From Antedon mediterranea (Eukaryota > Echinodermata > Crinoidea > Comatulida > Antedonidae), in contig NC_092672.1 in the NCBI RefSeq assembly GCF_964355755.1, forward strand, positions 36,452,501-36,516,500: a stretch of DNA of 64,000 nt, read 5' to 3'. Shown here in pieces: positions 7,658-52,800 of the stretch (within the stretch, counting starts at the first letter, position 1; each line of letters begins with the position of its first letter). The notes below the pieces were generated by a model that was not told the DNA's origin, made no database searches, and saw only the letters and a program-made list of their open reading frames with translations. A program made the position numbers and the translations under genes.

Positions 7658-33532
<25,875 letters not shown>

Positions 33533-33572: not shown

Positions 33573-33719
33573 AGTAATCAACAAAGGAAATTCAATATTC
33601 AAATTATATTTGGTTTTTTTATGATGGGTAAATGAAAGCAAATGTTGTACTCAGAATTCTTCTGTTTACAAACTCCTTGTTTGCCAGTGTTTGCAGAATG
33701 CTGTATTGCTGTAGACTGT
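33573..33719 (+). repeat. CPD 3' flank segment shared with HIP1 intron 1
   Basis: About 145 bp from 'AATCAACAAAGGAAATTC' to 'GCTGTATTGCTGTAGACTG' is present in inverted orientation at 51045-51175 plus 48350-48372. There it is split by the 2.67-kb inverted-repeat element. The TTG at 33706-33708 is the unoccupied target CAA on the other strand. This copy is probably part of the CPD 3' UTR. Confidence 0.85.
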
Positions 33720-33995
33720 AAAGCCCTATCTACACTATCGAAGTTTATGTGCCCATATATGGACATGATGATGTCATATCACTACCATATTTTGGCATAT
33801 CACACTTTTTTTGTCAAACTAGTTTGATAGTATAGACAGAGCTTAGATGATGTCATATCACTACCATTTGGCATATCACACTTTTTTTGTCAAACTAGTT
33901 TGATAGTATAGACAGAGCTTAGATGATGTCATATCACTACCATTTGGCATATCACACTTTTTTTGTCAAACTAGTTTGATAGTATAGACAGAGCT
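33720..33995. mobile_element. MITE family A, copy 6, with tandem right-half repeats
   Basis: A complete copy (33720-33846) is followed by two more copies of its right half, each about 76 bp: GATGATGTCATATCACTACC through 'TTTGATAGTATAGACAGAGC'. The three right halves are nearly identical. Confidence 0.88.
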
Positions 33996-46800: not shown

Positions 46801-49800
46801 TACACTTTTTCAGTAACTTAGGGGTTATTAGTTTACAATACGTCGCGAAACGCGTTACACTTAGCGACTGACGCGTTTTAGTCGCCGGTGAACTGTCTCC
46901 CCTTTGGTAAATTATGTGTCGAAAAATGGGGAATAAATTTTATACACACAATTAATACGATTTGTTTAGGCCTAAGTAATATTTCCGATAAAAATGTCAG
47001 TATAATTTACATGTATAACCTCATGATTTGCAATGTACAACAGCATAATAATCTTATCAGATTGCTTATTAACTTATTGCTTATTAACTAGGCCTAGTCC
47101 TAGCTAAGCCGTCTGCTCAGCCTAGCTAGCCTTGAATTTTTGTGTAAGCCTATAATGGCATTCATGGTTTTGAAAATGCTTGGTCATTTCGCCCCATTTA
47201 TCGTTCCTGGGTTTTCTCGCACATTCACAAGAATTGTGAAACACAAAATCCTATACAGAACAAGAGTAGTAAAGCGATGACCGATGTGGAAGCTTAGGCC
47301 TGACTGAAAAGCAACTTTTCAGGCACCCTATCATGGCCCATGGGTAGGCCGAAGTTGGGTGTCAACAGAACAAACTTCACTGCTGTCAGCCTAGCTAGAG
47401 GCCAAGCAGCATCGGTACATACCTACACTCTAGTAGGCCTAGGCCTAGCTTTATTGAATATATAGCCACGTCTTTCTCAAATCTCGTTAAATTTGACATT
47501 TTAGTAATAGTCTCATAATCACATTATTACACTGAAACATGATAGGGTCACATTCAGAATGTTTCAATATACTTTTCGCCCGTCAAAAATAACATCGCGA
47601 CAAAATAATAGATCGCCAGCTGCAGTAAGTGTGATTGTGAAAAATGTCACGTGATCAGACTCCCTAGCAAAATAAAAAACCCAATTGGACCCGAACGGGG
47701 GAAAGTGTCTATTTACGCAAAATTGCGCAATGTATACGCGATAAAAATACCAGAAATAGAAAGATCTGGAAAAATTACATAAAAATCCTTATTAAATTTT
47801 TTTTTTAGTGAAGAAATTAATTTGTTAGGATTATTCTAATATACCCCCCTTTTGCATGTAAAAGAATAGGAAATTACAAGGTATCCCCCCAAAACTCAAA
47901 AAGGCGTGATTTTCAAGAAAATCGTTCTCATTGAAAAAAAATTCAAAAAAATATGAAGTATGAGGGATGATATTTTTAAATAATAGTTGAAATGTATGAA
48001 AAATAGTAATTTTCTGAGTGGAGCTCCACTTTAAGATTTCACTTTATTTATCCACAATACAGGTTATTGAAATATTTTGGAGTATTCATGGTACGGTACA
48101 TTATAAAAATACTGTATTTAAACAATTTTACTGAGATTCGCAAATAAAATATTTAAAAACGTGTAAGTAAAATGAATGAAAATTTATTTGAATCTAAACT
48201 AAAATTTAACTTAAGTTCTGTATACACAATCAAACTAGTTTGACAAAAAAATGGTGATGCGCCCAAATATGGTAGTGATATACCCAAATATAGTAGTGAT
48301 ATGACATCATCATGTCCATATATGGGCACATAAACTTTGATAGTGTAGACAGAGCTTTACAGTCTACAGCAATAGTCCAGTCAAAAATCACCCTCACCAT
48401 GGTATAAGAACGTACCCTAATAAAATTTCATCCGTAGGTTCTATGTATATAGGTAATAACATTTCTTGATGTTGCGTCTTGCAAAACTTGGGATTTTACG
48501 AGAAAATTAGACTTTTATACCCAATTTATAACTACCTCATGTCGTATTATTGTGTACAGCGAATGCGACGAAGCGTGACTAAAATTACGAGACGCCGTTT
48601 GCGCCCGTTGAAAAATGCATTAACAAAGCTAAAAACTTACAAAATTAATAGTTTATACAATAATTTAAATATAGTTTACAATAAATTGTATAATAAAATA
48701 CATAACATATAAAGAAAACTCAAGTATAATCTCAAATATTTACAGATATGTGTTTAAAAATGTACAAATCAAAATGGCCTTCCATAAAATAAAGTGCGCC
48801 CTCACTCGTCATACTTTTATCGGACTTGTATGGATGGTTATACAAGGCATTAATAATACGAAACCCGATGCGGTTTGTTAGTTATTGCCTCTGCAAGAGG
48901 CAGAATATTATATTTTCACAAATATATTTCTAGTTTTTATCATGGAAAAAAAGAATTGTATATATTTAAACACATTACAACCTCCAGTCTACCATTCATG
49001 ATGGATTAAGTGAAGCGCCGTATTGTATATGCTATAGCGTAATGATCTTCTAGTTATCTGGTTATATTCTGGACATTCTTTTTTTCACAGCATTACTTGC
49101 GTGGATATCACAATGCATTTGTTTATTCGCGATTATAGTCAATATTAATTTGAGTAAGAATCATTTTTAAATGACAGTCCATTTCGCGTATACGATATAA
49201 TAAAGATTTAAATTAATAAAGTACTCTGAAATATTTTCTCATTGGTTATCCGCAACAAAGAATCCTTGTGATTGTTAGTTTTGTTTAATTTTCTTTGAAT
49301 TGTTTATTGGCATCCATATCGTATGATGTGTGAGACAATTTCGTGTTTTAAAAAATGTAATCCTGCCACCGAAGATTCTTTCTGTTCGAAGACTTCTGAC
49401 GGATAACTGTGTTATTCTTTTACATTTAATTAATTAATTAATGTTCATCTTCACTTTTGGTAAAAATAGCCTACATCTTTTAGGTTTAAAACGTCATTTA
49501 TAAGCATTTGTTGAATAAGCCAACAAATTAAACTACTGTGTTCTCCCAAGCTTTTTAAATTTTATTTAAATGCATTAAAATGCGTCGGACTCGGCGGATA
49601 ACAATATTTGAAATAAATGCATATAAAACTTTTGTTCTGGACTTTACTTTTTTGTCCCAAGTGAGAACTTTCAGGCCATGGAGGTGAACCGATCGTTTAT
49701 GACATGCTTTTGTGTATAAAATGTCCAATAATAATTGTAGGACTACTCTCAACCAAAACACTTTATATTAGAATGTATTTAATATACGTCACGTCTTAAA

Positions 49801-52800
49801 AAATTGGGAGAATTGGGTAATACAGTATGTCGTTTCTCGCGAATCTTACATCACACTCCACATTCTCACTTTCTTTTATTTAGTGAAATGTGAACGGTGG
49901 AAAAACGGGAAAATACTTTAAATTTAGAATGCTTTGAATTCTGGAAGACGACTTCGAACTTAAAGAATCGTCATGAATGACGTTTATTGGCTCAAACTTC
50001 ACACATCGGTACGATGTGAAGGCCAGACGGATTCAGAGAGGATCAAACCGGCTCCTCCTCCCCATTGGCAGTGGGGGCATCGGCGGGTGAAAGGGAAAAA
50101 TGATAAATGTTGATTCAGACGAATGCCAACCAGCCCCTTTGATACGCTCTTAATAATTGTTGGAAAGTGAAAGTAGGGCTACTTGAGGTAGGGCCTAGTA
50201 TCTTTCGTATAGGCCTACACGAAATGGATTATCCTTAAATGATTGGTTCTTACTCTAATTAAGATCATAATCGCGAATGATAGTTCAAAATATGCAATGC
50301 ATTGTGATATCCACGCAAGTAATGCTGTGAAAAAAAAAGAATGTCTATTCTAAAAATAAAACCAGCAAAACTAGTAGATCATTACGCTTCAGCAGATATA
50401 CAAATATACACTTAATCCATCATGATGGTAGACTGGAGGTTGTAATGTGTTTAAATATATACAATTCTTTTTTTCCATGATAAAAATTAGAAATATATTT
50501 GTGAAAATATAATATTCTGCCTCTTGCAGAGGCAATAACTAACAAACCGCATCGTGTTTCATATATTAATGCCTTGTATAACCATCCATACAAGTCCGAT
50601 AAAAGTATGACGAGTGAGGGCGCACTTTATTTTATGGAAGGCCATTTTGATTTGTACATTTTTAAACACATCTGTAAATATTTGAGATTATACTTGGGTT
50701 TTCTTTATATGTTATGTATTTTATTATACAATTTATTGTAAACTATATTTAAACTATTGTATAAACTATTAATTTTGTAAGTTTTTAGCTTTGTTAATGC
50801 ATTTTTCAACGGGCGCTAACGGCGTCTCGTAATTTTAGTCACGCTTCGTCGAATTCGCTGTACACAATAATACGACATGAGGCGGTTATAAATTGGGTAT
50901 AAAAGTCAAATTTTCTCGTAAAATCCCAAGTTTTGCAAGACGCAACATCAAGAAATGTTATTACCTATATACATAGAACCTACGGATGAAATTTTATTAG
51001 GGTACGTTCTTATACCATGGTGAGGGTGATTTTTGACTGGACTACAATACAACATTCTCCAAACACTGGCAAACAAGGAGTTTGTAAACAGAAGAATTCT
51101 GAGTACAACATTTGCCTTTATTTACCCATCATAAAAAAAACAAATATAATTTGAATATTGAATTTCCTTTGTTGATTAAGTTTAATAGTGTAGACAGAGA
51201 TACTAAATAATCAACAATGTACTGTTTACAGTAACAATCAATCTTTTTTTTTGTCAAAGTCAAATTGATATAAATAATAAAGAAACCTCTGACAGAGATA
51301 CTAAATAATCAACAATGTACTGTTTACAGTAACAATCAATCTTTTTTTTTTGTCAAAGTCAAATTGATATAAAGAAACCTCAAGATGATATGATATTTTA
51401 GTAACACTTTCATATTCAAAAGTAAGGTTTTCAATGACTTTCTTCATGGTTGACGATGATGTAATATCTATTTATAGAGTTAATCAGGATAAGTGTTACT
51501 TGGCTTGCTTCCAATTTTAAATGCTTCAATGAGCACGGTGCCAAGAAAAGCTCCTCAAACACGTTTTTAGACGATTAATCATATTCGTCACAGATCACGT
51601 CATTCACAAAATTAAAGAATAACAAACAGTTGTGTGTGATGTTAACATGCTGGGTTGAATCACATGACATCACAACATAAGTCTAAATGTACAAGAAAGG
51701 ATAATGCAATTGTGCTTGGTAGAATTACTGTAGGTAGAGTTCTTCAAAGTCTTGCCCCTTTGCTTGGTAGAATTAGGTGGAATCCCCCACCTTCAAAGTC
51801 TTGCCCCCTTGCTTGGTAGAATTAGGTGGAATCCCCCACCTTCAAAGTCTTGCCCCTTTGCGTGGTAGAATTAGGTGGAATCCCCCACCTTCAAAGTCTT
51901 GCCCCTTTGCTTGGTAGAATTAGGTGGAATCCCCCACCTTCAAAGTCTTGCCCCTTTGTGTGGTAGAATTAGGTGGAATCCCCCACCTTCAAAGTCTTGC
52001 CCCTTTGCGTGGTAGAATTAGGTGGAATCCCCCACCTTCAAAGTCTTGCCCCTTTTCCCTATGTACTGTAGAGCTTTATTGCTTCTTCCAGCCTACTTTC
52101 AACACCACACCTACTGTACTGTACCTCTCTTTACTTTTTCCCTAATTCATCTTAAACTTTGTGGCAGTACAGTAACCATCTCTATTTTGAAAATATTTTT
52201 TATTACCTTATTTATAGAGGGTGACCCTAAACAGCATATGCTGACAATCAAGGGGCTTCTTGATGAATGACATCAGTATTTTAGTTAAATTGTCAGTTGT
52301 AATACTAAAGTATAAACTGTATAGTAACAAACTACAGTAATGAAGTCGCCTATTGGTTGTTCATTCATTACTTACAGACAGTATATCAACATATTTAATT
52401 ACAAATTGTATATTGTGTTGTCAAATCAAATAGACTATTATTATTTAATCAGTTTACAAAGATTTATAAGATTGGATTGTATTCAAATAGGAAATCGTTT
52501 TGTTGTTAATGTTTACGGATGAATGCCAATGTACACACAATGTACACTATGTCAGACTTCCTATCAGGATATGTTGATTTCATTGAAAATTGCAATATTA
52601 GGAATTGTTTTATATATAAAGTAATATAGAAATGAGTGTGAAAGATATAATTGAAGTAGACGCTGTGATTGGACATTCAGAAAAAAAATCATAATGTACA
52701 GTACGTGTATTATTACCGTGTGAAATAAAATATACTGTAAATTGTACTGTACAGGTTAAAATTGTAACCTTAAGCTCTGTCTACATTATAAAACTACAGT

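Follow-up and report, generated by a model that had tools for sequence, protein, structure and literature searches.

A young non-autonomous transposon family with long inverted arms and 3-bp target-site duplications, probably of AcademX-like affinity

Positions 48373-51044 of the window, the 64,000-nucleotide stretch of DNA that was analysed, constitute one 2,672-bp element whose bounds are fixed to the base. All features tested show it to be a non-autonomous DNA transposon with terminal inverted repeats (TIRs), and its family has spread recently and as one unit. The sequence-only reading had matched the element to no nameable family; the family is indeed new, but its kind is known, with nothing unprecedented about it, and its ends, a sister family and its duplication length indicate the Academ superfamily (AcademX-like), an assignment made with moderate confidence. 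The window family, of which the window holds a single young copy, is probably non-autonomous and of foldback type, with an AcademX-like transposon mobilising it.

The element and its surroundings comprise the following features:
48370..48372, + strand, left target-site duplication CAA (flank reading)
48373..49190, + strand, left inverted arm, 818 bp (self-alignment)
48373..48407, + strand, conserved terminal motif TAGTCCAGTCAAAAATCACCCTCACCATGGTATAA (end alignment and pattern searches)
49191..50215, no strand, non-coding middle, 1,025 bp (ORF scan and six-frame Pfam search)
50216..51044, - strand, right inverted arm, 829 bp (self-alignment)
51010..51044, - strand, the same terminal motif at the right end (end alignment and pattern searches)
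51045..51047, + strand, right target-site duplication CAA (flank reading)
~33575..33845, - strand, paralogous uninterrupted site with a single CAA at 33706-33708 (joined-flank alignment)

The coordinates first proposed for the element were exact, and its description as arms of about 820 bp around a middle of about 1 kb agrees with the arm lengths measured by self-alignment. The arms align over 843 columns at 91.8% identity when gaps and small indels are counted; blocks free of gaps reach 97-100%, and no internal tandem repeats were seen in the arms. The ends are TAGTCCAG...CTGGACTA, both reading TAGTCCAGTCAAAAATCACCC inward; re-reading confirmed the TAGTCCAG ends and the CAA on both flanks. 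End alignment and pattern searches show that several related families conserve the outermost 35 bp, a motif that is a probable transposase binding site. The middle has no ORF over 70 aa and the element none over 80 aa, and translation in six frames gave no transposase fragment and no Pfam match above cutoff, consistent with the original description of an element without transposase. A search of its middle for an XPG remnant gave no significant match (best E = 0.07).

Searches of the 354-Mb assembly (18 contigs) located the middle at 36 or more places at ≥84% identity over nearly the full query length. A genome-wide search with the terminal 17-mer, a check suggested by the sequence-only reading, returned ~100-105 ends, compared with 0-1 for a reversed control pattern, an abundance far beyond chance. 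That reading had also called for flanks from at least 10 copies; duplication length was scored on the 23 copies with both flanks read, and an exact 3-bp duplication was present in 21, with agreement at 4-6 bp in none of the 23. One seemingly odd copy merely carries a substitution in the terminal TA. The duplicated triplets, which include CAA, CAT, TAT, GGA, AAT, TTT and AAA, have no common motif. The boundaries of the inverted terminal repeats are constant across many copies, so neither of the outcomes named at the outset as contrary, different boundaries or a lack of the 3-bp duplication, was found, and the copies support a non-autonomous long-inverted-repeat transposon with TAGTCCAG ends. 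Among 12 young copies, identity is 99.2% between left arms, 98.9% between right arms and 99.0% between middles, compared with 96.2% between the left and right arm inside one copy. Because the same arm differs by ~1% between copies and the two arms by ~4% within a copy, the family spreads as a unit and its arm differences are inherited. Older copies (84-93%) have an uninterrupted middle too.

The empty site reported within the same window is real as an uninterrupted sequence with one CAA, but it is a paralogous repeat copy and not an allelic empty site. Both flanks joined with one CAA match 33845-33575 (minus strand) across the insertion point at 88%, and this site is one copy of a dispersed repeat built of 21-bp minisatellite units. 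Since the site is paralogous, evidence for the 3-bp duplication comes chiefly from the other copies (21/23). The minisatellite repeat (GTGATATGCCCAAATATGGTA-like) is dispersed at ~11 places in the window, some copies being flanked by TTTGATAGTGTAGACAGAGCTT, and one of them adjoins the insertion site of the window element:
9391, 12651, 26113, 29327, 33767, 37347, 48254, 52818, 57051, 60888 and 63928 of the window, dispersed 21-bp-unit repeat

Two further minisatellites lie in the window, one at 31574-32026 with 28 copies of a 16-bp unit (95%), and one at 51742-52055 with 6.4 copies of a 49-bp unit (97%), ~700 bp from the right end of the element.

A full-length relative enclosing a transposase had been proposed as the next object of search. 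Genome pattern and protein searches found no intact autonomous copy with TAGTCCA ends; they did recover XPG-encoding elements with TAGGCCA ends. The XPG-encoding elements are represented by the following locus:
C5:29668161-29675902, 7,742-bp XPG-encoding element carrying a 1,247-aa ORF

The two copies of this element share 99.94% identity in the 3' region that was compared, up to ...GATGGCCTA, and diverge past ...CACCCGATGGCCTA. Given a duplication of 3 bp, the sequence to the right of each copy called for CCA in front of the left end on C5 and for ACA on C8; CCA directly precedes TAGGCCATCGGGTGAA at C5:29668158 and ACA directly precedes TAGGCCATCGGGTGAA at C8:13748205, making both elements 7,742 bp long. 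With the prediction borne out at both loci, TAG...CTA ends and 3-bp duplications are features of nuclease-encoding elements here as well as of the window family. By a motif reading of its C-terminal part, the 1,247-aa ORF appears to end in an XPG/FEN-type nuclease tail (SPDTDVAIL..., GLHVFTGCDSTSAFYGKGKKKAMEVM); Pfam and PDB sequence searches made no independent call of an XPG domain. Its Cys-rich end resembles tesmin/TSO1 CXC (Pfam TCR, E = 0.004, below the model cutoff). Querying the PDB with the XPG/CXC piece returned nothing beyond chance sortase matches and a weak lin-54 match. Proteins of this XPG/CXC type have 145 matches in the genome, a large and diverse family with several other ORFs of ~1,060-1,555 aa, which would represent a big Academ-like expansion.

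The sister family, family B (L134), ends in TAGTCCA, has arms of 825 bp that are 97.5% identical to each other and shows the duplication ATA; its likeness to the window element is confined to the terminal 155 bp (74%). Over the arm, 15 or more additional copies are 98-100% identical. Its middle holds pieces of one XPG-like nuclease/CXC gene in both orientations, the gene's 3' part beside one arm and a diverged inverted copy of the same on the other side, so that the whole element is near-palindromic. The least decayed copy read retains 234 aa of XPG-like protein, and the family B protein matches the C-terminus of the 1,247-aa ORF with 30% identity across 200 aa (103 bits). Family B end pairs were examined for autonomous candidates: most are ~2.7-2.9 kb apart and two are at 4.6 and 6.1 kb, the latter holding LINE-like sequence, and none is an autonomous copy. 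At C10:17636489-17637004, family B ends lie ~516 bp apart, a very short derivative.

The arrangement of the two gene pieces in family B suggests how the long arms arose: the 3' half of an autonomous element would have been duplicated as an inverted repeat, and the window family would since have lost the genes. Foldback structures are held to arise repeatedly via transposase loss and arm elongation (view cited in PMC4079207). Under the proposed mechanism, a transposase supplied in trans would recognise the conserved 20-35 bp at the outer end of each arm, excise the element and insert it at a 3-bp staggered cut, producing the 3-bp duplication, with no strong preference in target choice. The enzyme most probably would come from Academ, lineage AcademX, nuclease-encoding and making 3-4-bp duplications, and we infer that an XPG-encoding element mobilises the window family. 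An ancestral autonomous element probably gained the long arms when the half carrying the gene 3' end was copied in inverse direction, its genes decaying afterwards, a state that family B still displays.

The probable assignment of the 7.74-kb elements to Academ, whose nuclease is XPG-like, draws on the XPG/CXC C-terminus of the ORF and on the duplication length. AcademX, a lineage of Academ (Kapitonov & Jurka 2010; Kojima 2020, both cited in PMC10045372), codes for a nuclease and generates target duplications of 3 or 4 bp (PMC10045372), a range matched by the 3 bp of the window family. The window family has TAGKCCA ends and a 3-bp duplication in common with nuclease-encoding relatives in this genome, and the sister family contains XPG-like pieces. 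The window family differs from AcademX in being non-autonomous with 820-bp arms. Repbase classification compares the first 11 bases with those of a classified element and allows at most one mismatch (PMC4455052); the window family and the autonomous elements (TAGTCCAGTCA versus TAGGCCATCGG) differ at several of these 11 positions and have TAGKCCA in common.

The strongest alternative, an unlikely one that still carries appreciable weight, is that the window family is a non-autonomous member of Harbinger, CACTA/EnSpm, Zator or Tc4/Tc5, all of which give 3-bp duplications. Tc4 of C. elegans has long arms, and Tc4/Tc5 resemble the window family in combining a long-arm non-autonomous structure with a 3-bp duplication. 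A fold-back structure of Tc4 is named in a title cited in PMC11071193. Against these superfamilies, only 4 of the 21 duplicated triplets are TWA, as Harbinger would require, and only 5 of 21 are TNA, the Tc4/Tc5 pattern; the window family has no TNA/CTNAG target and its ends differ from those of Tc4/Tc5. Its TAG...CTA ends (TAGTCCAG) are not the CACTR of CACTA/EnSpm, and the only gene remains in the same-ended family B are XPG/CXC-like. Mutator-type foldbacks, as defined in PMC4079207, have an 8-10-bp duplication that is absent from the window family, which also has neither the 6-bp duplication nor the AG...CT ends of Polintons. Harbinger, Tc4/5, CACTA, Polinton and Mutator foldbacks thus each fail at least one tested defining feature.

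Two variants of the preferred reading, in which an AcademX-like transposon mobilises the window family, keep the XPG-type nuclease and part from Academ. In one, considered doubtful, the TAGTCCA families would be foldback derivatives that arose from an XPG-nuclease lineage when the nuclease-gene end was duplicated in inverse orientation, with a partner separate from described Academ. The other, rated slightly lower still, posits a separate undescribed superfamily with TAG...CTA ends, a 3-bp duplication and an XPG-type nuclease. The match of the window-family ends to the XPG elements only as TAGKCCA favours this second variant, but an XPG-type nuclease with CXC-like cysteines and a 3-bp duplication is the combination associated with AcademX.

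Drosophila FB, Galileo and Tetris foldbacks (PMC4079207) resemble the window family in having very long inverted arms without a transposase, and for Tetris, as for the window family, the autonomous partner has not been found. Most foldbacks are placed in Mutator, with 8-10-bp duplications (PMC4079207), as against 3 bp here, and the arms of the window family differ from those of foldbacks in having no visible internal tandem repeats. Foldbacks often have no known enzyme source. This case would tie a young foldback-type family to a nuclease-encoding, Academ-like group through its ends, duplication length and sister family, and the sister family, caught with two inverted nuclease-gene fragments, offers a concrete route to very long inverted arms.

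Derivation from a Polinton/Maverick by deletion, with the arms kept and the middle lost, was suggested by a 19-kb arm pair on C9 (2196767-2215732) that encloses PolB, an rve+chromo integrase, an adenovirus-type protease, an A32-like ATPase and capsid-like genes, and whose outer ends both match the window element at 98%. The core of this pair has its own inverted ends (AGTAGTATATGG...CCATATACTACT) with ATCGTT on both sides, and the pair was rejected as an autonomous parent: the core is a canonical Polinton, with its own 6-bp duplication, nested in a copy of the family:
C9:2198080-2214390 (L052/L053), Polinton/Maverick, with relatives on C5, C11, C1, C3, C10, C8 and C2

The uninterrupted middles of the older copies also argue against the derivation, as does the absence of other Polinton copies, located by their integrase, from the 40 best arm matches, and the nested 6-bp duplication refutes it. 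Polintons thus have long inverted arms like the window family, occur in the same genome and are once nested in a copy, but differ in their 6-bp duplication and AG...CT ends and are not related by descent. A nested Polinton can mimic an autonomous parent unless the inner target duplication is checked. A full-length open capsid-like ORF is present in at least 11 Polinton copies (99-100% identity) and an intact integrase ORF in 8 (99-100%), because of which these elements look very recently active in this genome.

An assembly-made palindrome or local inverted duplication, named at the outset as a refuting possibility and consistent only with appearance in a single window, has a negligible chance of being correct and is excluded by the inherited left/right arm differences and by the dozens of copies scattered through the genome, which keep identical bounds and are each bordered by a duplicated triplet of their own.

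Other long arm pairs were also examined as candidate parents. A 16-kb pair (C3:34115164-34131512, L050/L051) is a geneless copy of the element filled with satellite, an array of >10 kb with a ~106-bp period. The giant 61-66-kb pairs on C1 and C5 have one repeat, inverted, outside both 'ends', identifying them as duplicated old insertions. Among copies spaced 3.4-6.4 kb, the two that were read (L114 and L115) are the window element split by inserted DNA, LINE-derived in one case. L116 (4.06 kb) has just 36-48 bp of arm in common and the duplication ATA; it was rejected as a transposase source, its interior resembling retroelement debris by eye, with no Pfam match and no transposase. At C11:18881432-18881586, three arm ends stand in tandem at exactly 60-bp spacing, possibly a satellite born from a transposon end.
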